This document shows positions 1,916 to 34,841 of a DNA stretch of 64,000 nt, in pieces. This DNA comes from Microbacterium caowuchunii (lineage in GTDB: Bacteria > Actinomycetota > Actinomycetes > Actinomycetales > Microbacteriaceae), in the NCBI RefSeq assembly GCF_008727755.1, contig NZ_CP044231.1, positions 682,001 through 746,000 of the forward strand, read 5' to 3'. Position numbers and translations under genes: made by a program. How positions within the stretch are numbered: position 1 is the first letter of the stretch; each line of letters starts with the position of its first letter. Below the pieces are notes generated by a model, which saw nothing but the letters and a program-made list of their open reading frames with translations, ran no database searches and was not told the origin of the DNA.

Positions 1916-3052
1916 ATGACCGAGGTCGACCCGCAGCCGCTGTCGCGGCTGACCACCCTGCAGACCGGTGCCGCACCCCTGCGCATGCGTGAGGCGCGCA
2001 CGCGCGAGGAGCTCATCGGCGACCTCCGGGAGATCTGGGCGGACGGCGACGACTGGTTCGTGCTCGGCGGAGGCTCCAACCTCTTCGTCGGCGACGAGCC
2101 CTTCGACGGGACGGTCCTCCGGGTCCTCACGAGCGGGATCGAGCGGATCGCCGGTGCGAGCCCCGGTGCGACGCGTATCCGGGTGCAGGCAGGACACGAC
2201 TGGGACGCGCTCGTCGCGTACACCGTCGCAGAGGGGCTGGCAGGCATCGAGGCGATGTCCGGCATCCCCGGCACCGTCGGTGCGGCGCCCGTGCAGAACG
2301 TCGGCGCCTACGGGCAGGACATCTCGCAGACCCTCGTCGAGGTGGAGATCATCGACGAGGCGACCGGGGACGTCTCGGTCGTGCCGGCGTCCGAGCTCGG
2401 TCTCGGGTTCCGCACGTCCGTCTTCAAGCACCACTACGGGTCCGCGCCGGCGCGGCGTGCCGTCATCCTCTCGGTCACGCTGGAGCTGACGGAGGTCGGG
2501 CAGGGCGAGTATCCCGTGCGGGGCGAGCAGCTGCGACAGGCGCTGGGCCTCGAGCCCGGGGCATCCGTCTCGCTCGCCTGGGTGCGGGACCACGTCCTCG
2601 CCACCCGCCGGCGCAAGGGCATGGTGCTCGACGAGGCGGATGCGGACACCTCCTCGGCCGGCTCCTTCTTCCAGAACGCGATCGTCACCGAGCAGTTCGC
2701 CCGTACCCTGCCGGACGCGTGCCCGAGGTGGCCGATGCAGCCGGTGATCGAACAGGTGCAGGTGTATCCGCTGGACCGGTTCGACGGCTACGTCCCCGCG
2801 CCGGTGCCGCAGCCGATCGACGTCAAGGTGAGCGCGGCATGGCTCATCGAGCATTCCGGCATCGGCAAGGGCTTCCGCCTGCCCCGCTCGCGCGCCGCGG
2901 TGTCCAGCAAGCACGCGCTCGCGCTGACGAATCGCGGCGGTGCGTCCGCCGAGGAGCTCGCCGAACTCGCTCGGTTCATCCAGCAGCGCGTGCAGCAGGA
3001 GTTCGGTCTGCTGCTGCAGCCGGAGCCCGTCCTCGTCGGCGTCGAGCTGTAG
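1916..3052 (+). CDS. murB: UDP-N-acetylmuramate dehydrogenase
   Basis: FAD enzyme of 378 residues that reduces UDP-GlcNAc-enolpyruvate to UDP-MurNAc with NADPH in peptidoglycan synthesis (cytosol). Visible are the FAD-binding segment VLGGGSNLFVGD (about 49-60), GIEAMSGIPGTVGAAPVQNVGAYGQ, and GSFFQNAIV near residue 250 with the Ser that protonates the intermediate. The C-terminal substrate-binding domain ends with SSKHALALTNRGGA. Start ATG lies six bases after the MaoC stop. An antisense open frame from the DUF559 gene overlaps the last 265 bases; murB is the credible coding strand there. Confidence 0.95.
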   Translation: MTEVDPQPLSRLTTLQTGAAPLRMREARTREELIGDLREIWADGDDWFVLGGGSNLFVGDEPFDGTVLRVLTSGIERIAGASPGATRIRVQAGHDWDALVAYTVAEGLAGIEAMSGIPGTVGAAPVQNVGAYGQDISQTLVEVEIIDEATGDVSVVPASELGLGFRTSVFKHHYGSAPARRAVILSVTLELTEVGQGEYPVRGEQLRQALGLEPGASVSLAWVRDHVLATRRRKGMVLDEADADTSSAGSFFQNAIVTEQFARTLPDACPRWPMQPVIEQVQVYPLDRFDGYVPAPVPQPIDVKVSAAWLIEHSGIGKGFRLPRSRAAVSSKHALALTNRGGASAEELAELARFIQQRVQQEFGLLLQPEPVLVGVEL

Positions 3053-4101
3053 CACCCCCGCCCCCGCGCCGCCCGCCCTCCCTGCGTTTCCTCGGTCGAC
3101 TCGCCAGGACTTGCGGGTCCTGCGGGGCCGGCATACGCAATTCGTGGCGAGTCGACCGACACGGCGGCCGAGACGCGGGGCGATGCGGGATGCCGAGGGG
3201 ACGGGAGGGTGTCGGATCGGGCGGCGAGGAGACGGCGGATGCGGGCGACGAGCCGGCCCGGATCGTCGAAGTCTCGGGCGGTCACGATGGTGACCCGGAA
3301 GCCGAGCGACTCCAGGTCGGCCCGCCTGACCTGATCGAGACTCCATTGGTGGGGGTCGCGATGGTGGTCGCCGTCGTACTCGACGATCAGGCGCTGGCGG
3401 CGATAGAGCATGTCGACGCGCGCCATGAACCGATGACCATGGAAGATCTCAACGTTGAGTTCCGGCGCCGGCAGGCCGGCCAGGATCAGCAGGACCCGCA
3501 GTTCCGATTCGCGCGGCGATTCGGAACCATCCGCCGCCAGCTCGAGGCACTCCGCGCGGGCCACCGCACCGCGTGCGCGACCCGCCCGGCGATGGGCGGC
3601 CTCGAGCTCGTCCCGGGTCACCAGCGGGTCGCGCCGTGCGAGCATCCGGTCGGCGACCGCGACGAGGCTCGGCAGATCCAGGATGTGGGCGAGATCGACC
3701 CAGGTACGTTCGGGTGAGGTGCACCGCATCCCGTCGCAGACGACGATCTCCTCGGGTTCGACCGGGAGCGCCCGTCCGCGGATGCCCGGGCGACGGATGC
3801 GGTTCGCCGGCAGCGGCACCCCGATGACCGGTTCCGTCAGGGCGAGGGCGGCTTTCGCACGGGGAAGCGGCAGGCCCCAGGCGAGCGCTGCCGTCGGTCC
3901 GCACAGGAACGCGTGCTCCGGCACTGCCGACAGGAGCAGTCGGACACGCTCGAGCCCGTCGAGCTCGTCCCGCGTGCGCGTCCCCCAGTACGGTGCGTCG
4001 AGGTCCTGCGCGCGAAGCCTGCTGGGAGAGACACCCGCGGCGCGGGCATCGGTCACGGTGAAGGACGGGGGAAGGTGCGAGGGGAGCGGTGCGCGCTGCA
4101 T
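2788..4101 (-). CDS. AbiEi-like N-terminus with DUF559 (Vsr-like) nuclease domain; 3' tail probably spurious
   Basis: Open frame of 437 codons. Residues 1-70 resemble the winged-helix N-terminus of AbiEi-type proteins (FTVTDARAAGVSPSRL, then PYWGTRTR). Residues about 195-305 form a DUF559 domain of the Vsr/PD-(D/E)XK nuclease type: ESELR, ARVDMLY, LIVEYDGDHH and QVRRADLE carry the expected acidic residues. Such proteins normally end near RIRRLLAAR, here at about 3210. The frame has no stop there and instead runs through palindrome C and 265 bases antisense into murB. So the natural stop seems lost, or translation ends elsewhere. No AbiEii partner is adjacent. Biological role unknown. Confidence 0.7.
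   Translation of the reverse strand: MQRAPLPSHLPPSFTVTDARAAGVSPSRLRAQDLDAPYWGTRTRDELDGLERVRLLLSAVPEHAFLCGPTAALAWGLPLPRAKAALALTEPVIGVPLPANRIRRPGIRGRALPVEPEEIVVCDGMRCTSPERTWVDLAHILDLPSLVAVADRMLARRDPLVTRDELEAAHRRAGRARGAVARAECLELAADGSESPRESELRVLLILAGLPAPELNVEIFHGHRFMARVDMLYRRQRLIVEYDGDHHRDPHQWSLDQVRRADLESLGFRVTIVTARDFDDPGRLVARIRRLLAARSDTLPSPRHPASPRVSAAVSVDSPRIAYAGPAGPASPGESTEETQGGRAARGRGCYSSTPTRTGSGCSSRPNSCCTRCWMNRASSASSSADAPPRFVSASACLLDTAARERGRRKPLPMPECSMSHAALTLTSIGCGTGAGT
3095..3156. repeat. Palindromic element C (62 bp), pair with 4215-4276
   Basis: GTCGACTCGCCA at 3095-3106 is inverted perfectly as TGGCGAGTCGAC at 3145-3156, with a partial inner stem TTGCG/CGCAA. The element has the same outer arms, same total length (62) and same orientation as the element at 4215-4276; by eye 46 of 62 positions agree. 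It sits just after murB, inside the long 3' tail of the DUF559 frame, so the two copies bracket the conserved part of that gene. Confidence 0.8.
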
Positions 4102-4214
4102 CCGCTCATGGTTCTGCCGCGCCGGGCGTTCGTGCCGGCGCTCCCCGCCATTCGGTGCACAGCCGCGCCCCGATCATCTCCGGGGAGGAGCAGTCGGTTC
4201 CCCCTCACCCACCT

Positions 4215-4276
4215 GTCGACTCGCCAAGTTCTGCGGATGCGGGCGTGCCGGCACCCGCAGAACTTGGCGAGTCGAC
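4215..4276. repeat. Palindromic element D (62 bp), pair with 3095-3156
   Basis: A perfect 22-bp inverted repeat: arms 4215-4236 and 4255-4276 around an 18-base centre. The outer twelve bases GTCGACTCGCCA match element C exactly. It lies between the stop of aspC (4294) and the start of the DUF559 gene (4101), both on the minus strand, so it could also end aspC transcription. The rest of 4102-4293 shows no gene. Confidence 0.85.
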
Positions 4277-4293
4277 GAAAAGAGGGGACAGGG

Positions 4294-5493
4294 TCAGGCG
4301 AAGAGGGCCTGCAGGCGACGGACACCCTCCAGGAGCGCCTCGTCACCGAGCGCGTAGGAGAGCCGGAGGTATCCGGACGGGCCGAAGGCCTCGCCGGGCA
4401 CGACCGCGACCTCCGCCTTCTCCAGAATCAGGTCGGCCAGCTCCAGCGTGGTCGTCGGGGTGACGCCCTGCCACTCACGGCCGAGGAGTCCCTGCACATC
4501 CGGATAGACGTAGAACGCGCCGAGGGGGTTCGGGACGGTGACGCCGGGGATCTTCGCCAGCTCGGCCACGATGAGGCGGCGGCGACGGTCGAAGGCGTCG
4601 CGCATCCGCTCGGCCTCGTCCTGAGGTCCGGTCAGCGCCGCCAGCGCCGCACGCTGCGCGATGTTGTTCACGTTGCTGGAGAGGTGCGACTGCAGGTTCG
4701 CGGCGACCTTGATGGCGTCCTTCGGGCCCACCATCCAGCCCACGCGCCATCCGGTCATGGCGTATGTCTTCGCGACACCGTTGACGAGGATGGTCTGTCC
4801 CGCGAGCTCGGGCACGACCTCGACGATGGATGCCGCACGCGCACCCTCGTAGACGAGGTTCTGGTAGATCTCATCCGTGATGACCCAGATGCCGTGGGCG
4901 AGCGCCCATTCGCCGATCGCGCGAGTCTCCTCGGGCGTGTAGACGGAGCCGGTCGGGTTGGAGGGGGAGACGAAGACGAGCACCGTGGTGCGCTCGGTGC
5001 GGGCGGCCTCGAGCTGCTCGACGGTGACCTTGTAGTCCTGGTCGGCCCCGGCGAACACCTCGACGGGGGTGCCGTCGGCGAGGCGGATCGCCTCGGGGTA
5101 CGTGGTCCAGTACGGCGCCGGCAGCAGCACTTCGTCGCCCGGGTTCACGACCGCCTGGAACGCCTGGTACACCGCCTGCTTGCCGCCGTTGGTGACGAGG
5201 ACGCTGCCCGGGTCGACCTCGAGCCCGGAGTCGCGCAGGGTCTTGGCGACGATGGCTTCGCGCAGTACCGGCAGACCCGCGGCGGGCGTGTAGCGGAAGT
5301 TCGCCGGGTCCTGCAGTGCCTCGGCGGCCGCATCCACGATGAACTGCGGGGTCGGGAAATCGGGTTCGCCGGCCGCGTAGGAGATGACGGGACGCCCGGC
5401 GGCTTGCAGGGCCTTCGCCTTCGCATCGACCTTGAGGGTCGCGGATTCGGCGATCGCGGTGAGCTTGCGGGAGAGGGGGGCGCGTTCTGTCAC
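4294..5493 (-). CDS. aspC: Pyridoxal-phosphate aspartate aminotransferase
   Basis: Class I/II aminotransferase of 399 residues that exchanges amino groups between aspartate and 2-oxoglutarate, possibly also prephenate as in related enzymes. Seen: [10 protein letters not shown] near 41-50, [11 protein letters not shown] at 101-111, SPSNPTG at 176-182, DEIYQNLVY near 207, and [15 protein letters not shown], where Lys242 should bind PLP. The open frame extends upstream to 5781, but the family start is GTG at 5493, and TACGCT (plus-strand 5500-5505) sits six bases before it, giving a leaderless mRNA. Synteny with murB and the secE/nusG region is common in Microbacteriaceae. Confidence 0.92.
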
Positions 5494-5597
5494 GAATAGA
5501 GCGTATCCGGACGTCCGTGCCTCTGCGCGGATGCGTCCGTGTGCCGCGCCGCGCGGCGGCGGCAGGGGAGGGCGTGCCGGTGTGGAACGATGAACCG

Positions 5598-6464
5598 ATG
5601 GACGGTGCGGGGGTTCGGATCTGGGCGCTGCCGGGTATCCCGGAGGTGTGCGCGGGGGACGACCTCGCGGGCCTGATCGGTGCGGCCCTCGCCGCGCACG
5701 AGGGCGGATGCCGGGACGGCGACGTGCTCGTGGTGACCAGCAAGATCGTCTCGAAGGCGGAGGGGCGCATCGTCGCCGCATCCGATCGCGAGGATGCCAT
5801 CACCGCCGAGACCGTCCGGGTCGTCGCCACCCGCGGTAACACGCGCATCGTCGAGAACCGCCTCGGGATCGTCGGGGCCGCAGCGGGGGTCGACGCCTCC
5901 AACACCGCCGAGGGGACCGTCCTGCTGCTCCCGGAGGACCCGGATGCTTCGGCGCGCGCCCTCTGCGGCACGCTCCGTGAGCGGTTCGGGGTGCGCCTCG
6001 GCGTGCTCATCAGCGACACCCTCGGTCGCGCGTGGCGGCTGGGGCAGACCGACATCGCCATCGGTGCGGCCGGCATGCAGGTCGTCGACGACCTGCGCGG
6101 CGGGACCGACACGCAGGGACGTCCGCTGGCGGTGACCGTGCCCGTCGTGGCGGATGAGATCGCCGGCGCCACGGACCTCGTCAAGGGGAAGGCCACGGGA
6201 CTCCCGGTCGCCGTCGTCCGGGGGATGGGGCGGCTCGTGACCGACGAGGTCGACACCCCCGGTGCCCGCACGCTCGTGCGGACCGGTGAGATGGACATGT
6301 TCCGCCTCGGCACGGATGAGGCGCTCGCCGAGGGCCGCACCGCCGGGTACGCCGAGGGTCATGCCGCCGGGTACGCGGAGGGCCGCGCCGCCGGGTACGC
6401 GGAGGGGTACGCGGCCGCCCGGGCGGCGGCATCCGGTCCGTCGGCCGCCCCCGATCGCCCCTGA
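5598..6464 (+). CDS. cofE: Coenzyme F420-0:L-glutamate ligase
   Basis: About 288 residues. CofE adds the first L-glutamates to F420-0 using GTP and a divalent metal. Seen: [17 protein letters not shown] at the N-terminus, [37 protein letters not shown] and [13 protein letters not shown], all family hallmarks. The start may be ATG 5598, or GTG 5580, which has GGGGAGGG eight bases upstream. The C-terminus is odd: five near-copies of (A)GYAEG in residues about 250-275, an Ala/Gly-rich tail not needed for catalysis. No other F420 biosynthesis gene is in this window. Confidence 0.88.
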
Positions 6465-6500
6465 CCCGCGCTCCTCCTCTCCGCGAGACCACCCCTTCTC

Positions 6501-6575
6501 CCCGCGAGACTGCACGCTACCCACGAGACGGATGTAATCAGCCGCAGTCTCGTGGCCACTATGCAGTCTCGCGGG
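6501..6575. repeat. Nested palindrome A (75 bp), pair with 11695-11769
   Basis: Outer arms CCCGCGAGACTGCA (6501-6514) and TGCAGTCTCGCGGG (6562-6575), inner arms CCACGAGAC (6521-6529) and GTCTCGTGG (6547-6555). The copy at 11695-11769 has the same length and orientation and matches at 62 of 75 positions by eye. In the inner stem the outermost pair changes from C:G to G:C in the other copy, a compensatory change. It lies between the convergent cofE and aceA genes and could act as a two-way terminator. Confidence 0.85.
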
Positions 6576-6619
6576 AAAGGCTCGCGGGAAAGTCTCGCGG
6601 GAAAGGCTCGCGGGAAAGG
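6569..6619. repeat. Four tandem copies of TCGCGGGAAAGG-type unit
   Basis: Directly after the palindrome, the arm end TCGCGGGAAAG recurs four times with a spacing of 12-14 bases, with one- or two-base spacers. The copy at 11695-11769 has no such tail. It looks like slippage or partial duplication of the arm. Confidence 0.75.
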
Positions 6620-6704
6620 AGGGACCGGCGCGGACGTGGGAAGGCCCCGGCGCGGATGCAGCCGGGGCCTCCTCAGGGGAGAAGCACAGTCGCCGTACGG
6701 GGAC

Positions 6705-8300
6705 TCAGTTGAACTGGTTCATCGTGTTGTCCTTGCCGCCGGCCTTGAGCGCCGCTTCGCCGGCGAAGTACTCCTTGTGGTTGTCGCCGATGTCACTGCC
6801 GGCCATGTTCTGGTGCTTGACCGTGGCGATCCCCTCGCGGATCTCACGGCGCTGGACGCCCTTCACGTAGGCCAGCATGCCCTCGTCGCCGAAGTACCCC
6901 TTGGCCAGATCGTCGGTCGACAGTGCCGCCGTGTGGTAGGTCGGCAGCGTGATGAGGTGGTGGAAGATCCCGGCCCGGGCGGATCCGTCACGCTGGAACG
7001 TGCGGATCTTCTCGTCGGCGAGTCGGGCCAGCTCGGTGTCGTCGTACTCGACGCTCATGAGGTCGCCACGGTCATAGGCCGAGACATCCTTGCCCTCCTG
7101 TGCGAGCTGGTCGTACGCCTGCTGGCGGAAGTTCAGCGTCCAGTTGAACGATGGGCTGTTGTTGTAGACGAGCTTGGCGTTCGGGATCTCCTCGCGGATG
7201 GCGTCCACCATGCCGGCGATCTGGTCCACGTGCGGCTTCTCCGTCTCGATCCACAGCAGATCGGCTCCGTTGCGCAGCGACGTGATGCAGTCCAGCACGC
7301 AGCGCGCCTCGCCGGTGCCCGGACGGAACTGGTACAGGTTGCTGGCGAGCCGCTTCGGCCGCAGCAGCTTGCCGTCGCGCTTGATGACGACATCGCCGTT
7401 GCCGAGCTGGCTCTCCGAGATCTCCTCGACGTCGAGGAACGCGTTGTACTGGTCGCCGAGGTCGCCGGGTTCGTTCGTGACGGCGAGCTTCTGCGTGAGG
7501 CCGGCGCCCAGGGAGTCGGTGCGGGCGACGATCACGCCGTTGTCGATGCCCAGTTCGAGGAACGCGTACCGCACCGCAGTGAGCTTCGCGATGAAGTCCT
7601 CGTGCGGGACCGTGACCTTCCCGTCCTGGTGGCCGCACTGCTTCTCATCCGATACCTGGTTCTCGATCTGGATGGCGCAGGCACCCGCCTCGATCATCTT
7701 CTTGGCGAGCAGGTACGTGGCCTCCGGGTTGCCGAAGCCGGCGTCGATGTCGGCGATGATCGGAACGACGTGGGTCTCGTAGTTGTCGATCTGCGACTGG
7801 ATGAACTCGACCGCCGTCTCGTCACCGGCGGCACGCGCGTCGTCGAGGCGCGTGAACAGCAGGTCGAGCTCACGGGCATCGGCCTGGCGCAGGAACGTGT
7901 ACAGCTCCTCGATGAGCGCGGGCACCGCGGTCTTCTCGTGCATCGACTGGTCGGGGAGCGGGCCGAACTCCGATCGGAGAGCGGCGACCATCCAACCCGA
8001 CAGGTAGAGGTATCGCTTGTTCGTGCTCTTCAGGTGCTTCTTGATGGAGATGAGCTTCTGCTGCCCGATGAAGCCGTGCCAGACGCCGAGTGACTGCGTG
8101 TACACCGACGAGTCGGCGTCGTACTCGGTCATGTCGCGGCGCATGATGTCCGCGGTGTACTGGGCGATCTCCAGCCCGGTTCGGAATCGGTTCTGTGCCC
8201 GCATCCGCGCCACGGATTCGGGGTCGATCGCATCCCAGCTCGCCCCGTTCCGCTCCTTGAGCGCCCGGATGGCAATGATGTCGTCCTGGTAGTCGGTCAT
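6705..8300 (-). CDS. aceA: Isocitrate lyase (long form)
   Basis: 531 residues. It splits isocitrate to succinate and glyoxylate, the first step of the glyoxylate shunt (cytosol). ADIDAGFGNPEATY at 183-196 binds metal and substrate; EKQCGH at 219-224 carries the catalytic Cys of the K-x-C-G-H signature; ARTDSLGAG and WIETEKPH follow. The length matches the roughly 530-residue subfamily rather than the 430-residue E. coli type. Start ATG 8300 has AGGAAGAG just upstream. It lies 58 bases after aceB on the same strand, so aceB-aceA are likely co-transcribed. Confidence 0.96.
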   Translation of the reverse strand: MTDYQDDIIAIRALKERNGASWDAIDPESVARMRAQNRFRTGLEIAQYTADIMRRDMTEYDADSSVYTQSLGVWHGFIGQQKLISIKKHLKSTNKRYLYLSGWMVAALRSEFGPLPDQSMHEKTAVPALIEELYTFLRQADARELDLLFTRLDDARAAGDETAVEFIQSQIDNYETHVVPIIADIDAGFGNPEATYLLAKKMIEAGACAIQIENQVSDEKQCGHQDGKVTVPHEDFIAKLTAVRYAFLELGIDNGVIVARTDSLGAGLTQKLAVTNEPGDLGDQYNAFLDVEEISESQLGNGDVVIKRDGKLLRPKRLASNLYQFRPGTGEARCVLDCITSLRNGADLLWIETEKPHVDQIAGMVDAIREEIPNAKLVYNNSPSFNWTLNFRQQAYDQLAQEGKDVSAYDRGDLMSVEYDDTELARLADEKIRTFQRDGSARAGIFHHLITLPTYHTAALSTDDLAKGYFGDEGMLAYVKGVQRREIREGIATVKHQNMAGSDIGDNHKEYFAGEAALKAGGKDNTMNQFN

Positions 8301-8358
8301 GTTCTCTTCCTTGATGATCGTGACGGGTCGGCTCGCGTGAGCCAGGACGGGCGGAGGC

Positions 8359-10035
<1,677 letters not shown>

Positions 10036-11694: not shown

Positions 11695-11769
11695 CCCGCG
11701 AGACTGCATCCTGAGCACGAGACGGACGTAACCAGCGTCGGTCTCGTGCGGACTATGCAGTCTCGCGGG
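11695..11769. repeat. Nested palindrome B (75 bp), pair with 6501-6575
   Basis: Outer arms identical to element A: CCCGCGAGACTGCA (11695-11708) and TGCAGTCTCGCGGG (11756-11769). Inner arms GCACGAGAC (11715-11723) and GTCTCGTGC (11741-11749) pair perfectly despite base changes from copy A. It lies between ramB and the M18 peptidase gene. With element A it brackets exactly aceA-aceB-ramB. Confidence 0.85.
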
Positions 11770-25330: not shown

Positions 25331-25375
25331 CGCGTCAGCGCGTGCTGGCACACGATAAGTGATTCAGGTGGGTGC

Positions 25376-25642: not shown

Positions 25643-25692
25643 GATCGGGAATGCGGGACCTGCGGCCCGCCCACGAACGAGAGAGTACGGAA

Positions 25693-26784: not shown

Positions 26785-26795
26785 TCCAGACGCTC

Positions 26796-26833
26796 GGGAG
26801 AACCCCGCGACCCTCCGGTCGCGGGGTTCTCCC
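26796..26833 (+). terminator. Terminator after nusG
   Basis: Perfect 17-bp stem: GGGAGAACCCCGCGACC at 26796-26812, loop CTCC, and its complement at 26817-26833. No long T run. It separates nusG from the rplK promoter. Confidence 0.85.
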
Positions 26834-26906
26834 GTTCCGTGGCACGGTACGCATCCGGTGGCCCTCCGTCGGGGAGGCCTGCATCCGGCGCTGCGGCGGA
26901 GTGCGG

Positions 26907-26912
26907 TAGACT
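26907..26912 (+). promoter_or_regulatory. -10 box for rplK-rplA
   Basis: TAGACT in GCGGTAGACTTACG fits an actinobacterial -10 element; no good -35 is seen. It leaves a leader of about 105 bases before rplK, long enough for L1-type autoregulation, although no L1 binding fold is obvious to me. Confidence 0.45.
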
Positions 26913-27025
26913 TACGTGGTTTGCGTGTGCGCCCCGGCGCGCCCGACGGACGACCGCGATCCGGAGACGCCGGATATGCGGGAGAACCGGATGCAGCCGC
27001 ATCCGATTCGATGAAAGGAAACAGC

Positions 27026-27457
27026 ATGGCACCCAAGAAGAAGGTGACCGGCCTGATCAAGCTCCAGATCAAGGCCGGCGCTGCCAACCCGGCGCCGCCG
27101 ATCGGCCCCGCGCTCGGTCAGCACGGCGTCAACATCATGGAGTTCTGCAAGGCCTACAACGCGGCCACCGAGTCGCAGCGCGGCAACGTCATCCCCGTCG
27201 AGATCACCGTCTACGAGGACCGCAGCTTCACGTTCATCCTCAAGACTCCTCCGGCAGCCGAGCTCATCAAGAAGGCCGCCGGCGTCGCCAAGGGGTCCTC
27301 GACCCCCCACACGACCAAGGTCGCGAAGCTGACCAAGGACCAGGTGCGCGAGATCGCTGAGACGAAGCAGCCCGACCTGAACGCGAACGACATCGAGGCC
27401 GCCTCGAAGATCATCGCCGGCACCGCCCGTTCCATGGGCATCACGGTCGAGGACTGA
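27026..27457 (+). CDS. rplK: 50S ribosomal protein L11
   Basis: 143 residues, standard length. [20 protein letters not shown] with [17 protein letters not shown] is the conserved N-terminal domain; the C-terminal 23S rRNA-binding domain ends with [15 protein letters not shown]11 forms the GTPase-associated stalk base and is needed for RelA sensing. AAAGGA lies 8 bases before ATG. rplA follows after 13 bases. Confidence 0.97.
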
Positions 27458-27470
27458 GGGGATAACGAAC

Positions 27471-28157
27471 ATGTCTAAGTCCAAGGTTTACAACGCCGCC
27501 GCCGAGAAGCTCGAGGCCGGCAAGTACTACACGCCCACCGAGGCCGTCGAGCTCGCCAAGGAGACCGGGTCGAAGAAGTTCGACTCGACCGTCGAGGTCG
27601 CGCTCAAGCTCTCCGTGGACCCGCGCAAGGCGGACCAGATGGTCCGTGGCACGGTCATCCTGCCCCACGGCACCGGTAAGACTGCTCGCGTCATCGTCTT
27701 CGCCACCGGCCCCGCGGCCGAGGCAGCGATCGCCGCAGGTGCCGATGAGGTCGGCGGCGCCGAGCTCATCGAGAAGGTCGCCGGCGGCTGGACCGCGTTC
27801 GACGCGGCCGTCTCCACCCCGGAGCTCATGGGCCAGGTCGGTCGTCTCGGTAAGGTCCTCGGTCCCCGCGGCCTGATGCCGAACCCGAAGACCGGCACCG
27901 TGACCCCCAACCCGGCCAAGGCCGTCGAGGAGATCAAGGGCGGAAAGATCGAGTTCCGCGTCGACAAGCACGCCAACGTGCACTTCGTCGTGGGCAAGGC
28001 ATCGTTCTCGGCAGAGCAGCTCGGCGAGAACTTCGCCGCGGCTCTCGAGGAGATCCAGCGTCTCAAGCCCTCCAGCTCCAAGGGTCGTTACATCCAGAAG
28101 GGTGCGGTGTCGACCACGTTCGGCCCCGGCATCCCGCTGGACGTCAACTCCCTCTGA
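27471..28157 (+). CDS. rplA: 50S ribosomal protein L1
   Basis: 228 residues. The signature [20 protein letters not shown] is present near residue 123, followed by [17 protein letters not shown]1 forms the mobile stalk at the E site and in many bacteria represses its own operon. It is the second gene of rplK-rplA and is followed by a strong terminator. Confidence 0.97.
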
Positions 28158-28171
28158 TCCCCGGCTGAGAA

Positions 28172-28205
28172 CGAACGGCCCCGTCCACGGACGGGGCCGT
28201 TCGTC
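28172..28205. terminator. Terminator after rplA
   Basis: ACGAACGGCCCCGTC (28172-28186), loop CACG, complement at 28191-28205: a perfect 15-bp stem. It lies between rplA and the convergent acylphosphatase gene and could work both ways. Confidence 0.88.
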
Positions 28206-28232
28206 GTCTTCCGGGCCGTCCTCGGGGCCGTC

Positions 28233-28511
28233 TCACGCTGTCGGGAGCAGGTCGAACCCGGGGGCGGATGCGGCGGGGGCCTCCGTGACCTCGATCCGCG
28301 ACACCGCCGCGGTGGCGGGTCCCTCCGCCAGCCAGGCCAGCATCCGATCCACCGCTGCGTCCGGCCCGTGCAGCTCCGCCTCCACGGTGCCGTCGCGGCG
28401 GTTCCGCACCCACCCGCCGACCCCGGCATCCCTCGCGGCTTCACGCGCCGAGTAGCGGAACCCGACCCCCTGGACGGTGCCGTGCACAACGACTCGGCAG
28501 TGGCGTGTCAT
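28233..28511 (-). CDS. acyP: Acylphosphatase
   Basis: 92 residues. VHGTVQGVGFRYSAREAA (about 8-25) carries the substrate-binding Arg and the family signature; GWVRNRRDGTVEAELHGP near 32-49 has the catalytic Asn. It hydrolyses acyl phosphates such as carbamoyl phosphate and 1,3-bisphosphoglycerate. The ATG at 28511 follows GGAGGG very closely; the open frame goes on upstream without family similarity. It lies 44 bases after the lysE gene on the same strand. Confidence 0.92.
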   Translation of the reverse strand: MTRHCRVVVHGTVQGVGFRYSAREAARDAGVGGWVRNRRDGTVEAELHGPDAAVDRMLAWLAEGPATAAVSRIEVTEAPAASAPGFDLLPTA

Positions 28512-28555
28512 CCCTCCATGGTGCCCGCCGGTGGGGGAGCGCGCCAGCAGAGTCC

Positions 28556-29212
28556 TCAGGCGGGCAGGACCAGGCTGATCGCGATGGCCGCCATGACGAC
28601 GGCGATGGCGCCGTCGAGCACTCGCCATGCGCGCGGGGTGGCGAGCCACCTCCCGAGATAACGCGATCCGTACGCGAGGGAGAGGAACCACGCGGTGCTG
28701 GCCACGACGGCGCCCGCCGCGAACCACCACCGGTCGGCGCCCTGGGTGGCCGCGACCGAGCCGAGCAGGAAGACCGTGTCGAGGTAGACGTGGGGGTTGA
28801 GCCAGGTGAGCGCCAGGCACGTGGCGACCACCGCGGGAAGAGTGGTGGCGCCGGCGGTGACCGTGCGCGTCCCCGGACCGTTCGCGGGGTCACCGGGGGG
28901 CGCGGCCTGCGCGTCCAGGGCGGCTCCGGTGGGGCGCAACGCGCGACGCGCGGCCAGGGCGGCGTATCCGAGCAGGAAGGCCGCCCCTGCCCAGCGGACG
29001 ACATCGACGAGCCAGGGGACGGAATGGAGCACCCAGCCCGCTCCGGAGACCCCCACGATGATCAGCACCGCATCCGACGCCGCGCACAGCAGTGCCACGA
29101 CGAGGACGTGCTCCCGCCGGATGCCCTGCCGCAGCACGAACAGGTTCTGCGCACCGATGGCGACGATGAGGGAGAGGCCCAGCGCGAAGCCGGAGAGGAG
29201 GGCAGCGGACAC
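28556..29212 (-). CDS. lysE: LysE/ArgO family basic amino-acid exporter
   Basis: 218 residues, about six membrane segments. The family motif GAQNLFVLRQG lies near 20-30, and LTWLNPHVYLDTVFLLGS marks the second half. It exports excess lysine or arginine. GTG 29212 is preceded by TAGCCT (plus-strand 29219-29224) six bases away, pointing to a leaderless mRNA. It is divergent from the LysG-type regulator that would switch it on. Middle loop contains an Ala/Pro-rich stretch. Confidence 0.9.
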   Translation of the reverse strand: MSAALLSGFALGLSLIVAIGAQNLFVLRQGIRREHVLVVALLCAASDAVLIIVGVSGAGWVLHSVPWLVDVVRWAGAAFLLGYAALAARRALRPTGAALDAQAAPPGDPANGPGTRTVTAGATTLPAVVATCLALTWLNPHVYLDTVFLLGSVAATQGADRWWFAAGAVVASTAWFLSLAYGSRYLGRWLATPRAWRVLDGAIAVVMAAIAISLVLPA

Positions 29213-29281
29213 GTGATGAGGCTACGTCCTCCGTGATCATCAGGACCAGTGAGGAATCCTGTCCGGTCGTAAGCTGAGCTT
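29213..29281. promoter_or_regulatory. Divergent lysE/lysG control region with two leaderless promoters
   Basis: Only 69 bases separate the two starts. lysE has its -10 box at 29219-29224 (TAGCCT, minus strand) and the regulator at 29270-29275 (TAAGCT, plus strand), each six bases from the start codon. TAAGCT-G-AGCTTA at 29270-29282 is a perfect palindrome over the regulator start and could be an autoregulatory site. Confidence 0.6.
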
Positions 29282-30202
29282 ATGCGCGACATCCCGATGG
29301 AGCTGGCCGAGACCCTGGCAGCCGTCGTCGACACGGGAACGATGGATGCCGCCGCGCGACGGCTGCACATCACCCCATCCGCCGTGAGTCAGCGCATCCG
29401 CACGCTCGAGGACCGTCTCGGCCGTGTCCTGCTGGTCCGCGCGAAACCCGCACGGCCCACGGACGCCGGTGCCCGTGTCGTGCGCCTGGCACGGCAGTAC
29501 TCGGTGCTCGCACACGATGCCCTCGCCGATCTGGGTGCGGGCGCGTCCGGGGAGGAGGGAGGCAGGAGGGTCTCCATCCCGCTGGCGGTCAACGCCGACT
29601 CGATGGCGACGTGGATGCTGCCCGCGCTGGCGACCGTCGCGGACTCCCACGGCGTCGTCTTCGACCTGCACAGCCATGACCAGGACCACACCGCCGCGCT
29701 CCTCGAAGAGGGCGAAGTCATGGCGGCGGTGACCTCGCAGGAGGACCCCGTGCCCGGGTGCCGGGTCAGTCCGCTCGGCGTCATGCGTTACGAGGCCGTC
29801 GCGACGCCGGAGCTGGCGGAGCGGATGCGGGCGGATCCGACCGCGGTGCCGGTCGTGGACTTCGATCGCCGGGACGAACTGCAGACGCGGTGGTTGCGGG
29901 CGCGGGGCGTGGACGCGGCCGTCCCCGCCCGGCACCGGGTCCCCGGCTCCCACGACTTCGCTCAGGCGCTCGTCGCGGGTCTGGGCTGGGGGATGCTGCC
30001 GGAACCGCAGTCCGCCGAACCGCTCGGGAACGGACGGCTCGTGCGACTGGGCGGCGACCCGGTGGACGTGCCGCTGTACTGGCAGCAGTGGAACCTCGAA
30101 TCCGCCGTGCTCACGGCGGTGGGCGCGGAGCTCGGGAAGGAGGCGCGGCGGAGGCTGCGTCCCCCGCGCGGGGAACGCCGCCGACCGGACGCCGGCCGGT
30201 AG
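29282..30202 (+). CDS. lysG: LysR family regulator of LysG/ArgP type
   Basis: 306 residues. The N-terminal helix-turn-helix is clear: LAAVVDTGTMDAAARRLHIT with PSAVSQRIRTLEDRLGRVLL (about 12-52). The effector domain has the ArgP/LysG-style CRVSPLGVMRYEAVATPEL. LysG activates lysE when lysine, arginine or histidine accumulate. The gene is divergent from lysE, the classical arrangement. Confidence 0.9.
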   Translation: MRDIPMELAETLAAVVDTGTMDAAARRLHITPSAVSQRIRTLEDRLGRVLLVRAKPARPTDAGARVVRLARQYSVLAHDALADLGAGASGEEGGRRVSIPLAVNADSMATWMLPALATVADSHGVVFDLHSHDQDHTAALLEEGEVMAAVTSQEDPVPGCRVSPLGVMRYEAVATPELAERMRADPTAVPVVDFDRRDELQTRWLRARGVDAAVPARHRVPGSHDFAQALVAGLGWGMLPEPQSAEPLGNGRLVRLGGDPVDVPLYWQQWNLESAVLTAVGAELGKEARRRLRPPRGERRRPDAGR

Positions 30203-30226
30203 ACCGGCGGGGCTACAGGCCGGCGG

Positions 30227-30739
30227 TCACTCCGGCGCGGGTGTCCCGTTCCGGCGCCGCACGTTGGCGGGCGCGACGTCCTCGAGCAGCGTGTGCAGCA
30301 GGGTGGCGAGCGTCTCGATGTCCTCGACCGGCCAGTGCGCGAGCGCGCTGATGAGCCCGTCCTCCTGGGGCCCACGGGCGAACGCGAGGCGCTGCAGGCC
30401 GAACGGGGTCGGCGAGAGCAGGCTGGAGCGGCGGTCGGTCGGGTCCGGTGCGCGCACGATGAGGCCGAGCTCCTCGAGCTCGCGCACGGTGCGGCTGAGC
30501 TGGCCCTTGTCGAGCATGAGGTGCTCGGCGAGGGCGGCCTGGGTGACGGACTCGCGACGCACGATCGTCGTGAAGATCTTGTACGCCGCGGGGAGCATCC
30601 CCGGGCTGACACGTCCGGCGTTCTCCGCCACCATCGCGCGGAAGTGCACGATGAGTTCGCTGAACTCGGCCTCGAGGGCGCGCACCGCCTGGATGCGCGC
30701 CTCCCGTGCCGTGTCCGCTCCTGCGGTGTCGGTGGTCAT
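30227..30739 (-). CDS. MarR family transcriptional regulator
   Basis: 170 residues. A winged helix is seen: VTQAALAEHLMLDKGQLSRT, VRELEELGLIVRAPDPTDRRSSLLSPT. It lies ten bases after the MFS efflux gene on the same strand, so pump and regulator share one transcript. Three TTGA-N6-TCAA sites upstream of the pump are its likely operators, so it should repress both genes and itself. ATG 30739 has GAGGGA upstream; an upstream in-frame ATG would overlap the pump gene. Confidence 0.88.
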   Translation of the reverse strand: MTTDTAGADTAREARIQAVRALEAEFSELIVHFRAMVAENAGRVSPGMLPAAYKIFTTIVRRESVTQAALAEHLMLDKGQLSRTVRELEELGLIVRAPDPTDRRSSLLSPTPFGLQRLAFARGPQEDGLISALAHWPVEDIETLATLLHTLLEDVAPANVRRRNGTPAPE

Positions 30740-30749
30740 CGCCCGTCCC

Positions 30750-32465
30750 TCAGTCGCCCCGGGACCCGGAGGGAGCGGGTTCGTCCCCATCCGGCCGGTT
30801 CCCATCGGCCGTGGGGATGGATCCCGTCGCGGCGAGGGTCTGCATGGCCTGCGGCACCGAGACGGTGGCCAGGTCGGCCTCCCCGGCGGCGAGCCGCTCG
30901 CTCGTGGTCATGGAGGTGAGCGCGATGTTGGGCAGGAAGATGATCGCGATGAGACTCAGCACGGCGAAAGGCACCGCGATGAGGAACGAACGCGAGATCC
31001 CGTTCGCGTAGATGTCCTCGAAGACCACGCGCAATACCTCGGGCATCGCCGAGACCTGGGGGAGGGTACCGCTCTCCAGCTGCGCCACCCAGACCTGCGC
31101 CTGGTCGCCCAGGGTCCCGAGCGCGGCGGCGATGTCGTCCGTGCGGTCGGCGACGAGCTCGGTGACCCGCGTGGCGAGTGCCGCACCCATCACCGAGACG
31201 CCGATCGTGCCGCCGAGGCTGCGGAAGAACGTCACACCCGAGCTCGCGACGCCGATCTCGGTCGGTTTCGACGTGTTCTGCACCACCAGGACGAGGTTCT
31301 GCATCGTCATCCCGACGCCCGCTCCGAGGAGGAACATGTAGAGCGAGACGAGCGCGAAGTTCGTGTCGTAGTGGATGGTGGACAGCATCGACGAACCCGC
31401 GATGAGCATGACGCTGCCGACGATGAGGTACGGCTTCCAGATCCCGTGACGGGTGATCAGCCCACCGACGACGATGGACGAGATCAGCAGACCGCCGATC
31501 ATCGGGATCGTCATCAGCCCGGCCTCGGTGGGGGTCGCGCCCCGGGCGAGCTGCATGTACTGGCTCAGGTAGACGGATGCGCCGAACATGGCGATGCCCG
31601 TGGCGATCGACGCGATCACCGAGAGGGTGAACGTGCGGTTGCGGAACAGGGTGAGGGGGATGAGCGGCTCGCTCACGCGCAGCTCCACCACGACGAACAG
31701 GATCGCTCCGACGATCGCTCCGCCGAGCATCAGCGCCGTCTCGATACCCCACCATTCGAAGGTGTCACCGGCGAGGCTGATCCAGATGAGCAGCAGCGAC
31801 ACGGCCACCAAGAGCAGGACGATGCCGATGTAGTCGATCGACACCTTGCGCTTGGCGTGGGCCGGCAGCTTCAGCGTCCGCTGCACGATGATGAGCGCCG
31901 CGACGGCGAAAGGCAGTGCCACGAAGAAGTTCCAGCGCCATCCCCAGGCGTCCGTGATGAGTCCGCCGAGGAGCGGTCCGCCCACGGTGGCGACGGCCAT
32001 GACGGCGCCGAACAGTCCCATGTACTTGCCGCGCTCCCGCGGGCTCAGGATGTCCGCCATCAGGACCTGGCTGAGGGCGGCCAGGCCACCGGCGCCGATG
32101 CCCTGCACGGCGCGGAAGGCGATGAGCGTGGTCGGGTCCTGCGCGAATCCCGCTGCGGCAGTGGCCAGCACGAAGATGATGATCGCGAGCTGGTAGAGCA
32201 GCTTGCGATTGACGAGGTCGGCGAGTTTGCCCCAGACCGGGGTGGAGATGGCCGTGGTCAGAAGGGTGGCGGTGACCACCCAGGTGAAGGTGCCCTGGTC
32301 GCCCCCCAGATCGTGCACGATGACCGGGAGCGACGTCGAGACGACCGTCGAGGCGAGCATCGAGACGAACATCCCGAGGATCAGTCCGGAGAGCGCCTCG
32401 AGGACGCGTCTGCGGCTCCGGGGTGCGGTTGCGGAGCCGTCCGGGGAGGGGGGAGTGGCTGTCAT
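30750..32465 (-). CDS. MFS multidrug exporter, DHA2 (14-TM, EmrB/QacA type)
   Basis: 571 residues with about fourteen membrane segments. Motif A-like GKLADLVNRKLLYQ near 75, motif C region GPLLGGLITDAWGWRWNFFVALPF near 148 with the typical antiporter G-P pattern, and an acidic first membrane segment region LGMFVSMLASTVVSTSLPVI. It exports hydrophobic drugs or similar compounds using the proton gradient. ATG 32465 is preferred to the earlier in-frame codon at 32495. It is first in a pump-marR operon. Confidence 0.9.
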   Translation of the reverse strand: MTATPPSPDGSATAPRSRRRVLEALSGLILGMFVSMLASTVVSTSLPVIVHDLGGDQGTFTWVVTATLLTTAISTPVWGKLADLVNRKLLYQLAIIIFVLATAAAGFAQDPTTLIAFRAVQGIGAGGLAALSQVLMADILSPRERGKYMGLFGAVMAVATVGGPLLGGLITDAWGWRWNFFVALPFAVAALIIVQRTLKLPAHAKRKVSIDYIGIVLLLVAVSLLLIWISLAGDTFEWWGIETALMLGGAIVGAILFVVVELRVSEPLIPLTLFRNRTFTLSVIASIATGIAMFGASVYLSQYMQLARGATPTEAGLMTIPMIGGLLISSIVVGGLITRHGIWKPYLIVGSVMLIAGSSMLSTIHYDTNFALVSLYMFLLGAGVGMTMQNLVLVVQNTSKPTEIGVASSGVTFFRSLGGTIGVSVMGAALATRVTELVADRTDDIAAALGTLGDQAQVWVAQLESGTLPQVSAMPEVLRVVFEDIYANGISRSFLIAVPFAVLSLIAIIFLPNIALTSMTTSERLAAGEADLATVSVPQAMQTLAATGSIPTADGNRPDGDEPAPSGSRGD

Positions 32466-32510
32466 GGGAGTCCTTCGCGAGCAGGAGCGCGGCATCGGCG
32501 ACGCGAACGG

Positions 32511-32570
32511 TTGATGCGGATCAATGGTTGAAGCTGGTCAACTATACAGCAACTGGTTGAGTTGGCTCAA
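32511..32570 (-). promoter_or_regulatory. Promoter with three TTGA-N6-TCAA operators for the MFS-marR operon
   Basis: Palindromes TTGA-N6-TCAA occur at 32511-32524, 32528-32541 and 32557-32570. On the minus strand a -35 TTGAGC (32565-32570) and -10 TATAGT (32541-32546) are 18 bases apart. The third site overlaps the -35, the second touches the -10, and the first is just downstream of the expected start point. This is a typical repressor layout, and the neighbouring MarR protein is the natural ligand. Confidence 0.85.
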
Positions 32571-32787
32571 CCATTTGCAGGAAATCTCGTGAGGCAGAAA
32601 CCGCTTCGTCCGGCACCTCTCGGCGCCGCGAGCCGCGTGGCGCCTGGTCGGTTGGGGCGTGCCGCGTGCCGCGTGCCGAGTGGCCCCTGGTCGGTCGGGG
32701 CGGAGTGCCAGGCATGGCGCGGCGGCGGCCCGGTGGCGGAGCGTGGGCGGGTGCGCCCGCGGCTGCTCGGTTGAGCGGTTGGCGCGG
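32571..32787. other. Non-coding stretch with short degenerate repeats
   Basis: Between the efflux promoter and the YqaJ gene. GTGCCGC/GTGCCGC/GTGCCGA occur in tandem near 32660, and CCTGGTCGG-T/C-TGGGGCG-like blocks occur twice (near 32643 and 32685). Open frames here lack start sites and family likeness; I see no gene. Confidence 0.5.
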
Positions 32788-33465
32788 TCAGTCGCTCAGG
32801 GCGAGCGCTCGGAAGGAGGGCCGCGAGGAGGGATCGGTGCGCGGAGCGGGGATGGTCGCGGCGGCGAGCGCATCCGGGCGCCCGCCGGTCGTGCGGTAGT
32901 ACAGCTCGTCGATCAGCTTCGTCGCGAGGCCCACGAGCTTCGCGATCTCGGCCTCGTCCCGGTCTACCCAGGCGCACTTCGGTTCGTCGTCGATCGGCAC
33001 GAAACCGTCGTGCTGCTCCCAGGCGACGAGGGTGCGCTCGGCCCCCAGGACGTGCTGCTGCCACCACACCTGGCGGAGGTAGCCGCGCGGGATCGACCTC
33101 CAGGACTTGTTGGTGGTCTTGATCTCCGCCAGCACGACGCGACCGCCGGCGTCGAGGCCGATTCCGTCGGGGGTGGCCAGGTGGCGCTTCTCCACGACCG
33201 CGTGGAACAGGGAGCTCGAGGGCAGGATGCCGTGCGTCGCGGCGATCCAGGATGCGATCTCCGGCTCCCGACGTCGCCCGTGGTCCGTGAAGGCGTTGCC
33301 GGAGAACCGGGATCCGCCGAGCTTCTGGTCCGCCGCCTTCGCGATGGCGCGTTCACTCGTGAGTGTGGCGACATCCGTGGCGGTGATCCCCCGGGACCGC
33401 GCGCGCAGCCAGGCGACCCGGTCACGGGAGTCCGCGACGATCCGGGCGGCGAGTTCGGGAGTCAC
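32788..33465 (-). CDS. YqaJ-type recombinase exonuclease
   Basis: 225 residues of the lambda-exonuclease-like PD-(D/E)XK family. RRREPEIASWIAATHG, then TPDGIGLDAGGRVVLAEIKTT hold the catalytic Glu, Asp and E-x-K; YLRQVWWQQHVLGAERTLVAW is the conserved helix region. Phage relatives resect DNA ends for single-strand annealing. No annealase or other phage gene lies nearby, so it is a lone chromosomal copy. GTG 33465 is six bases after TAGGCT (plus-strand 33472-33477), a leaderless start. Confidence 0.85.
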   Translation of the reverse strand: MTPELAARIVADSRDRVAWLRARSRGITATDVATLTSERAIAKAADQKLGGSRFSGNAFTDHGRRREPEIASWIAATHGILPSSSLFHAVVEKRHLATPDGIGLDAGGRVVLAEIKTTNKSWRSIPRGYLRQVWWQQHVLGAERTLVAWEQHDGFVPIDDEPKCAWVDRDEAEIAKLVGLATKLIDELYYRTTGGRPDALAAATIPAPRTDPSSRPSFRALALSD

Positions 33466-33478
33466 CCCACGAGCCTAC

Positions 33479-33570
33479 GTCGCACCCCCCGCTCCCCACC
33501 GCCACGACGCGCCCCCGCCCCGCCCCCCGCCCCGCCCCCGCCCCCCCGCCGCCCCGCCCCCGCCCCTTCT
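33479..33570. other. C-rich tract, G-quadruplex-capable on minus strand
   Basis: More than ten runs of four to seven C with single G interruptions (CCCCCGCC-type), so the minus strand has G runs fit for quadruplexes. It lies upstream of the YqaJ start, between its -10 box and palindrome E, and has no coding character. Confidence 0.7.
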
Positions 33571-33580
33571 CTTCACGTCG

Positions 33581-33652
33581 CCCACCCCTTTTCCGCCGAG
33601 CCACCCCTCTCCCCTCCGCAGGAAGAGGGGCGGGTCGCCGAAAGGGGGGTGG
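33581..33652. repeat. Palindromic element E (72 bp), pair with 34758-34830
   Basis: Imperfect hairpin: CCACCCCTTTTCCG-type left arm against CGAAAGGGGGGTGG, and an inner ACCCCTC/GAGGGGC pair. It shares CGCCGAGCCACCCCT and the order of right-arm blocks with the element downstream of 34747, in the same orientation. It lies just after the stop of the AbiEi/DUF559 gene. Confidence 0.75.
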
Positions 33653-33668
33653 ATCGGTGCGGGTGTGG

Positions 33669-34649
33669 TCACCCTCGGCGGGGACGGATGCCGAAGGCGG
33701 CGAGGCGGGTGCGGAGTGCCCCGAGGTCCCGGATGTGGACATCGCCGACGCGTGCCATGCGCCGCTGCGCCACCCCTCTGATCCAGTCCTCGCGCTGCTT
33801 CTCGTCCAGGAGCACCTGCTCGAGGGATCGGCCCGAGCGCAACGCCTCGTCGAGGTACTTCGTCTGTCCGTCGACTTCGCAGAAGGCCTCGACGTCATCC
33901 AGGGCGATGTCGATCCAGTACGAGCCGCCGTGCGGATCGGCCACGGGCACCTGCAAACGGGGTCGCTGGAACCCCAGCCGGACCAGCTGCAGGCGGGCGA
34001 CGCTCTCCAGCGGGAGCTGCGCACGTCCGTCGCTGAGAGCGAGGACTTCGCGTGCTCGGCGGATGCCGCGCACCGCGCGAGCCGTCGTCCGTCGTTCGAG
34101 GTCCGCCTTCAGCGTGTCCGCCCGGTCGTCGTCGAACGCCCGCGGATCCCCGCCGACGCTCGCGAGCGCTGCGTCGGCCGAGGCCAGCCCGGCCTCTGCG
34201 GGCAGCATCCGTGCGAGATCGTAGACCGTGCGCGTGAGCGAGGTGCAGCGGAGGCCGTGCCGCTCGGCGATGTCCTCGTCAGGCACGCCGCCCTCGTGCC
34301 GGAGCACGTCCGGTGTGCTGTGCCGGTCGACGTTCCGGCTGTACACGTGCACGCGTCGGGGTGTGACGCGGTAGAGGGGCAGGCCCCACAGGCACGCCGC
34401 TGAGACGAGGCAGAACAGGGGGTCCGAGCCGCGAGCGGACAGCGAGACGGCGAGGACGTGAGCGAGGTGACGGGATTCGGGCCAGAGCTCCTGCCAGAGC
34501 GCGCCGCGGAGATACCAGCCACGATGCACCCGGACGAGGGATCCGGCGGCGACGTCGCGGCCGACTGCTCTGTCCGAGATGCCCGCCGCGCTCAGTTCCT
34601 CAGCCGACCGCAGCTCGCCGCGGAGCTCCTCCGCCCCTGCCTGTCTCAT
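33669..34649 (-). CDS. AbiEi-like winged helix with DUF559/Vsr-like nuclease domain
   Basis: 326 residues. N-terminus: ELSAAGISDRAVGRDVAAGS with LVRVHRGWYL, a winged-helix pattern of AbiEi-type proteins. Middle: CTSLTRTVYDLARMLP. C-terminus: PLESVARLQLVRLGFQRPRL, WIDIALDD, FCEVDGQTKYLDEA and EKQREDWIR, giving the acidic residues of the Vsr-like nuclease fold. It has the same domain order as the gene ending near 3210-4101. ATG 34649 is chosen; the frame is open to 34781 but runs through palindrome F. No AbiEii toxin gene is adjacent. Function unknown. Confidence 0.75.
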   Translation of the reverse strand: MRQAGAEELRGELRSAEELSAAGISDRAVGRDVAAGSLVRVHRGWYLRGALWQELWPESRHLAHVLAVSLSARGSDPLFCLVSAACLWGLPLYRVTPRRVHVYSRNVDRHSTPDVLRHEGGVPDEDIAERHGLRCTSLTRTVYDLARMLPAEAGLASADAALASVGGDPRAFDDDRADTLKADLERRTTARAVRGIRRAREVLALSDGRAQLPLESVARLQLVRLGFQRPRLQVPVADPHGGSYWIDIALDDVEAFCEVDGQTKYLDEALRSGRSLEQVLLDEKQREDWIRGVAQRRMARVGDVHIRDLGALRTRLAAFGIRPRRG

Positions 34650-34746
34650 CCCCGCAGCATCCCCCGCCCCCTCACCCGGCCTCTCCCGCCTCCCCGCATC
34701 CGTGTCCCCCCACCCCGCCCCCTCGCCCTGGGGAGGAGGCGTCCAC

Positions 34747-34841
34747 CCCTCCGCCGACCCACCCCCCTCTCGCCGAGCCACCCCTGCAGCTGCGGCGGGT
34801 AGAGGGGTGGGGCGCCGCGAAGGGGGTGGGTCGGCGGAGGG
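34747..34841. repeat. Palindromic element F (95 bp), pair with 33581-33652
   Basis: Perfect 20-bp arms at 34747-34766 and 34822-34841, plus inner CCACCCCT (34778-34785) and AGGGGTGG (34803-34810) and a GCAGCTGC centre. The core 34758-34830 (73 bases) aligns with element E. It lies between the start of the AbiEi/DUF559 gene and the rplJ promoter. Confidence 0.85.

Follow-up and report, generated by a model that had tools for sequence, protein, structure and literature searches.

Nuclease genes bracketed by palindromes in Microbacterium and its relatives look like one co-evolving system

This report concerns a stretch of 64,000 nucleotides from Microbacterium caowuchunii (contig NZ_CP044231.1, positions 682,001 to 746,000), hereafter the window, in which two genes for AbiEi-like proteins with a putative Vsr-like nuclease part, P1 and P2, each lie between two copies of a palindrome (families F1 and F3, respectively); a third gene of this type, P3, lies outside the window between copies of family F2. 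The bracketed nuclease genes and the palindromes of Microbacterium and its relatives look like one co-evolving system. Most of these little-studied genes are bracketed, P1 and P2 keep their chromosomal slots, the two palindromes of a locus turn over as a pair, and the dispersed copies match the type of the resident gene (for types A and B of P1). We believe that every AbiEi-Vsr gene probably makes up a two-part system with the palindromes of its family, in which the nuclease would also drive the spread of the palindromes. The features in question are the following (bp, base pairs).

3211..4101, minus strand: P1, gene for an AbiEi fold plus a DUF559/Vsr-like nuclease, conserved part (the open reading frame continues to 2788)
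33669..34649, minus strand: P2, gene for an AbiEi fold plus a Vsr-like nuclease, beside rplJ
G000:C1:1172025-1173008 (L108:1117-2103), outside the window: P3, third AbiEi-type gene, between F2 copies at 1171906 and 1173154
3095..3156, no strand: F1 palindrome, downstream copy, 62 bp, GTCGACTCGCCA...TGGCGAGTCGAC
4215..4276, no strand: F1 palindrome, upstream copy, 62 bp, 113 bp ahead of the P1 start codon used (4101)
6501..6575, no strand: F2 palindrome, 75 bp, 1 of 51 dispersed copies
11695..11769, no strand: F2 palindrome, another dispersed copy, 75 bp
33581..33652, no strand: F3 palindrome, downstream copy, 72 bp, by reading and fold
34758..34830, no strand: F3 palindrome, upstream copy, 73 bp core, with symmetry out to 34747-34841

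Bracketing was scored as the best local match between the 450 bp upstream and the 450 bp downstream of a gene, with a cut-off of >38. None of 344 control genes exceeded 38 (five exceeded 35), versus 80 of the 94 usable loci: 30/38 in the P1 clade, 25/30 for P2 and 25/26 for P3. The link to Vsr-like nucleases, which a first-pass annotation of the window had drawn from two loci, thus holds far beyond them. The P2 and P3 relatives are the 30 loci fetched for each, the P3 search having spanned 80 chosen genomes; 26 of the 30 P3 loci were kept (L226, L244, L253 and L254 were left out for contig ends or overlapping flanks), and L048, L056, L058 and L067 were dropped as lying on the same contigs as L036-L039. 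In the protein searches, at most 8 and at most 7 candidates were scored per genome, and one scan left 124 of the 295 congener genomes unscored. The upstream match ends a median of 106, 125 and 126 bp ahead of the matched gene start (P1, P2 and P3, respectively), and the downstream match begins a median of 10.5, 16 and 26 bp after the matched gene end. At least one bracket segment is self-complementary in 26/30, 17/25 and 24/25 bracketed loci, and both segments are in 21/30, 11/25 and 22/25.

Bracketing and the nuclease domain occur together. When 149 genomes of the order were searched with AbiEi_4, 99 had matches, and 30 loci were fetched; AbiEi proteins flagged as nucleases by a regular expression were bracketed in 10/14 cases (eight taxonomic families) and unflagged ones in 0/16, with a highest score of 27 (Fisher test, 3.3e-5). 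One locus (L281) looks falsely flagged and three unflagged loci (L258, L265 and L271) have doubtful gene calls; without these four, the counts are 10/13 and 0/13 (Fisher test, 5.4e-5). M. caowuchunii itself has nine AbiEi/DUF559-type genes (a tenth, weak AbiEi match at 1833299 is not counted), of which six are bracketed: P1 with a score of 45, P2 with 71, P3 with 144 and three others with 61, 51 and 46. DUF559 genes in general were considered as partners and rejected: at the five further DUF559 genes in this genome, the initial palindrome finder detected no pairs. A flank-to-flank comparison gave weaker pairs at three of these five.

The six palindromes of the window, reported by the first-pass annotation as three pairs, are real. 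Each was confirmed at its coordinates by reading the sequence; the repeat finder picked up five, and the sixth (33581-33652, predicted fold of -46.4 kcal/mol) was found by eye. With a hairpin score of >=14 there are 11 palindromes in the window, including four of the six, versus 0, 1, 1 and 0 in four Markov shuffles of the window, and the six exceed chance. A stable hairpin is predicted for each (-40 to -57 kcal/mol), and the window elements, 62-75 bp long, have the palindrome ends GTCGAC, CCCGCGAG and CCCACCCC.

The genome (3,262,719 bp) contains 8 exact-arm copies of F1, 51 copies of F2 and five pattern matches of F3, while among 57 other genomes F1 and F3 have none and F2 has 1-8 related copies in five. 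The chance of any two copies lying as close as the observed pair is 0.019 for F1, 0.007 for F3 and 0.98 for F2. The pairing of F1 and F3 therefore needs explaining; the F2 pair around aceA-aceB-ramB (by Pfam, isocitrate lyase, malate synthase and a helix-turn-helix/IrrE-like regulator) needs no explanation, since F2 has 51 copies. The earlier claim of locus-specific pairing at three places is thus retained for two of them and withdrawn for F2. Seven further close F2 pairs were read: one (L108) encloses P3, and the other six (L109-L114) enclose unrelated genes, judged by eye. Since P3 sits inside an F2 pair, each of the families F1, F2 and F3 brackets some AbiEi/Vsr-type gene in this genome, and P3 is the likely partner of F2. 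By the first-pass annotation, its proposal would be refuted by tens of scattered copies with no link to DUF559; such copies do exist for F2, but a link to DUF559-type genes exists as well.

P1, P2 and P3 are homologous (P2 and P3 are full-length homologues by profile), and PADLOC AbiEi models match all three. P1 scores 24 bits against DUF559 (PF04480), above the gathering score of 20.6; P2 and P3 have no DUF559 match at the E-values used, and NCBIfam gives no family for P1-P3. In structure models, P1 and P2 each combine the fold of the AbiEi antitoxin with a nuclease fold like that of Vsr and I-Bth0305I. A PDB profile match was obtained with 3r3p (E 4.5e-4), and the PDB profile search with P2 returned no match. 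P1 homologues at E <= 1e-20 occur in 260/295 congeners, and their annotations include terms such as ‘endonuclease domain-containing’, ‘DUF559’, ‘AbiEi family antitoxin domain-containing’ or ‘hypothetical’. Residues E198, D230, H247 and D256, which may be the EDxHD catalytic residues, are invariant across 66 aligned P1 sequences; P2 has K264 at the position of P1 H247. Records from M. caowuchunii match P1 at 98% and P2 at 95%. The record 98% identical to P1 is marked partial; no stop codon interrupts P1 ahead of the F1 palindrome, and the open reading frame crosses the palindrome and then runs antisense into murB to 2788 (window 2788-3210).

The slots of P1 and P2 are delimited by the following genes of the window.

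1916..3052, plus strand: murB-like gene, left edge of the P1 slot
4294..5493, minus strand: class I/II aminotransferase gene, right edge of the P1 slot
32788..33465, minus strand: YqaJ-like gene, left edge of the P2 slot
35087..35575, plus strand: rplJ (ribosomal protein L10), right edge of the P2 slot

These are the immediate neighbours of P1 and P2 by Pfam; those of P3, assigned by eye, are glycine dehydrogenase and a CPBP-like gene. No AbiEii nucleotidyltransferase toxin gene is found among the immediate neighbours of the three. P1-clade genes lie beside murB and/or the class I aminotransferase in 29/38 loci (six of the rest lie beside another shared gene and three were not placed), and in the P2 clade the neighbour is the YqaJ gene and/or rplJ in 27/30. 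Considering that these slots are shared, the genes stay put while the palindromes change. The observation lends no support to the earlier suggestion of a cassette exchanged by recombination between the copies. A fused palindrome in place of a lost block, which the first-pass annotation proposed to look for, did not appear in the slots that were read: the gene-less P1 slots of six genomes (G146, G060, G184, G142, G085 and G012) contain other palindromes or none, with no fused F1, and the gene-less P2 slot of G146 has no fused F3 copy. This reading did not extend to that slot in the fetched regions L200, L202, L203, L205, L206 and L209.

The palindromes vary between loci, but within a locus the two copies match. 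Among 93 downstream flanks, that of the same locus ranks in the top 3 for 76/93 loci (L066 was left out of this comparison, so that P1 n=37), and the median flank match is 56, 54.5 and 88 on the diagonal (P1, P2 and P3) versus 23-27 off it. Flanks of different loci match at times because related loci share palindromes or neighbours. The turnover is seen in a 14-member P1 clade sharing the murB slot, where eight loci typically have GCG(T/C)GAGTCGCCA-N5-TGTCGC half-sites and six have GCGTGAGGGGTCA-N5-TGTCGC. Here GTCGCCA is swapped for GGGGTCA at a constant position; the outer core differs and the inner part is the same. The two groups are separated by 11 protein columns, none within residues 226-297. 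Palindrome types A, B, C and D were assigned to the P1 loci by eye, seven of them at loci scoring <=38 (L037, L050, L055, L060, L062, L066 and L100). On the nuclease tree these types require 5 changes, versus 15.8 on average and never fewer than 13 in 200 shuffles (G301, which has no type, was left out of the count). P1-type genes and their palindromes co-evolve.

The dispersed copies follow the resident gene. Over the 295 congeners, and with the bracket copies counted in, A-arm palindromes (GAGTCGCCA) occur in 20/38 genomes with a P1-clade gene and in 13/257 without one, and B-arm palindromes (GAGGGGTCA) in 17/38 and 13/257; the Fisher values, 1.5e-12 for A and 7.6e-10 for B, overstate the association, since the genomes are related and are not independent trials. 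In genomes with an A-type P1, A outnumbers B in 16/19 and B outnumbers A in one; in those with a B-type P1, B outnumbers A in 10/11. In the sister genome G146, the P3 gene is bracketed by a different palindrome, GGGTAAACCCCAC(G/C)GT(T/C)TCGGGGCCCAG, of which three copies were found in 140 kb; this family also occurs in the aceA-side intergenic region, where M. caowuchunii has F2. The G146 P3 gene itself (L228, C50) has one in-frame TGA, yet the palindrome copies persist.

The architecture of F2 is that of a long paired site. Its symmetric parts comprise 69 bp: on each side an invariant 11 bp, a fixed 7-bp spacer and a nearly invariant 8 bp, with a centre of 17 bp. The spacers are constant in length and do not covary (paired fraction 0.26-0.46 versus 0.26-0.49 expected, in 39/51 copies), which suggests, at the level of sequence, recognition of paired half-sites in double-stranded DNA more than a selected hairpin. 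The F1 spacer is partly complementary (7/8 copies). The F2 flanks are mostly ttCCC...GGGaa, opposite to an intrinsic terminator. Among the 39 F2 copies with context, none is inside a predicted gene, and they commonly lie 15-30 nucleotides from a gene end; 18 are between convergent genes, 18 between tandem genes and two between divergent genes, with one undetermined. Long sites have been described for relatives of both parts of the protein: AbiEi binds two 23-bp inverted repeats (PMC7319586), and I-Bth0305I is described as dimerising on a target of nearly 60 bp (PMC3943268). A separate observation concerns the F2 arm end (CTCGCGGGAAAG), which is repeated in tandem directly beside an F2 copy (window 6566-6618). 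Tandem arrays of F2-like palindromes are also present at L019, L020 and L244 (G016 and G020); the array of G016 adjoins a P3-type gene, and those of G020 fall at contig starts, so such arrays may break assemblies.

We presume the following mechanism. The AbiEi-like N-terminal part would recognise the palindrome as a pair of long inverted half-sites, and the upstream copy, at about 105-125 bp from the gene, would probably double as an operator for autoregulation. The Vsr/I-Bth0305I-like C-terminal nuclease would nick or cut at or near the palindromes, and repair from another copy would spread and homogenise them in intergenic DNA, similarly to what is presumed for RAYT (the tyrosine transposases associated with repetitive extragenic palindromes, REPs) but on double-stranded DNA. 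The gene would remain in its fixed slot, and a drift of its specificity would lead to the replacement of the flanking and dispersed copies by a new sequence. A broader proposal is that AbiEi-Vsr nucleases drive a second, independently evolved kind of REP system, each recognising a long double-stranded palindrome, copying it across intergenic DNA and rewriting the entire family upon a change of specificity, with several such pairs per genome; we would give it even chances.

The closest precedent is the REP/RAYT arrangement, known as the REPtron or TnpA-REP, in which, according to PMC2817692, PMC3116915 and PMC8266576, a single-copy transposase gene lies between two REPs and co-evolves with dispersed REPs. 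The likeness includes a lone gene between its own palindromes, intergenic dispersed copies, co-evolution and the fact that the gene itself does not spread; by this analogy the AbiEi-Vsr system probably works like REP/RAYT. It is nevertheless not a member of it, because neither the enzyme nor the size and tag of the element agree: the enzyme here is an unrelated AbiEi-Vsr fusion, whereas RAYT is an IS200/IS605-like HUH tyrosine transposase, and the elements are 62-75 bp long and lack the tag, whereas REPs measure 20-40 bp and are tagged on one side by GTAG or CGTC (PMC3733652). Moreover, F2 resembles a double-strand site with fixed non-pairing spacers and not a selected hairpin. The bracketed P1 and P2 are not HUH/Y1 transposases, judging by their AbiEi and Vsr-like folds; RAYT genes elsewhere in the genome were not searched for. 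The arrangement has the REP/RAYT precedent, and the parts are unrelated to those of REP/RAYT.

Other known systems share single parts. I-Bth0305I, an EDxHD Vsr-like homing endonuclease, has a similar catalytic domain fold according to the models, but here the gene occupies a fixed chromosomal slot between housekeeping genes, the DNA-binding part is AbiEi-like and the proposed target is a dispersed repeat family. The AbiE type IV toxin-antitoxin system shares the modelled AbiEi fold; here there is no adjacent AbiEii gene, the nuclease is fused, and AbiEi without a nuclease is not bracketed. Vsr and the Vsr-like DUF559 endonucleases, such as Caulobacter VsrA (PMC12907096), share DUF559 and the Vsr fold; VsrA, however, is linked to a cytosine methyltransferase, and ‘palindrom’ is absent from the main text of that paper. 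In the open-licence PubMed Central literature (subscription papers and preprints were outside the search) we found no report of a nuclease-palindrome system, and DUF559 together with ‘palindrom’ gave only unrelated papers. The name of the host phylum does not occur in three RAYT/REP papers searched for it (PMC2817692, PMC3116915 and PMC3733652). The proposal provides a testable function for the AbiEi/DUF559 nucleases, common and unexplained in these actinobacteria, and a candidate driver for palindromic repeats in the phylum. If a nuclease with no relation to transposases indeed spreads the palindromes, repeats of the REP kind have arisen more than once. The natural nuclease/palindrome pairs at fixed loci already offer data from which the recognition of long DNA sites could be learned.

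Four other explanations were weighed. It is conceivable, though rather unlikely, that the AbiEi part is solely a DNA-binding autoregulator whose regulon, or a sink that titrates it, is formed by the dispersed palindromes, with the nuclease otherwise employed (e.g., in defence) and the copies multiplied in another way. Relatives of AbiEi act as repressors by way of inverted repeats that precede their own genes (PMC7319586), the PADLOC models match all three proteins, and the upstream palindromes end at medians of 106-126 bp ahead of the matched gene start; but an operator leaves unaccounted for the second copy just downstream of the gene, the rarity of F2 copies between divergent genes (2/39) and the lack of bracketing at AbiEi proteins without a nuclease domain. 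We give little chance to a homing cassette, i.e., a palindrome-gene-palindrome block that inserts itself into single palindromes and disappears when its copies recombine. The predicted nuclease fold matches the homing endonuclease I-Bth0305I, and some genomes have no gene in the slot; however, the constancy of the slots speaks against recent homing, and in the gene-less slots that were read, neither F1 nor F3 is represented by a fused palindrome, though these genomes are distant.

Still less probable is that the palindromes are RNA hairpins or terminators lying beside these genes by happenstance. All six are predicted to fold stably and F2 copies lie near gene ends, which is compatible with this explanation; against it, the F2 spacers are fixed in length without covariation, the flanks are the reverse of those of an intrinsic terminator, the Rfam search of the window returned only a tRNA, with no family matching the palindromes, and the gene-specific pairing and type match would be left unexplained. 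Chance proximity of ordinary REP-like repeats, the plain explanation in the first-pass annotation, fits the F2 pair around aceA-aceB-ramB and fails for F1 and F3; in view of the control genes it is refuted for P1, P2 and P3, and as a general explanation we consider it hardly tenable.

Several points weigh against the two-part system that we prefer. Scores of <=38 were obtained at 8/38 P1, 5/30 P2 and 1/26 P3 loci, and the remaining three of the nine genes in the M. caowuchunii genome score 36 (with palindromes visible), 33 and 27. The own downstream flank is the very best of 93 for just 44 loci (18/37 P1, 7/30 P2 and 19/26 P3); 24% of P3 cross pairs exceed 35 and the 95th percentile of P2 cross pairs is 132. 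The P2 flanks are less clearly palindromic, as the count of 11/25 for both sides indicates. Dispersed copies were counted for F1-F3 and for types A and B only, and many copies were found in genomes without a P1-clade gene (22 A in G305, 12 A in G012 and 32 B in G009), the P1 slot of G012 being empty despite its 12 A copies; these palindromes may be orphaned families or belong to another partner. After ramB, G146 has a palindrome of different sequence with no known partner, so that one of the two compared sites fits. The intergenic DNA of G146 is too diverged to have yielded a clean target-site duplication or empty site. Finally, binding, autoregulation, cutting and the nuclease-driven movement of the palindromes are what we infer from the observations.

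Two minor observations on palindromes concern G146 and the window. A further family of G146, CATGTCCCACTTTCTGCCGTTAT (L285-L291, C62), has three copies in 140 kb and no partner gene assigned. A 52-bp palindrome of no known family lies at positions 46191-46242 of the window, and in that intergenic region G146 has a palindrome of its P3 family.

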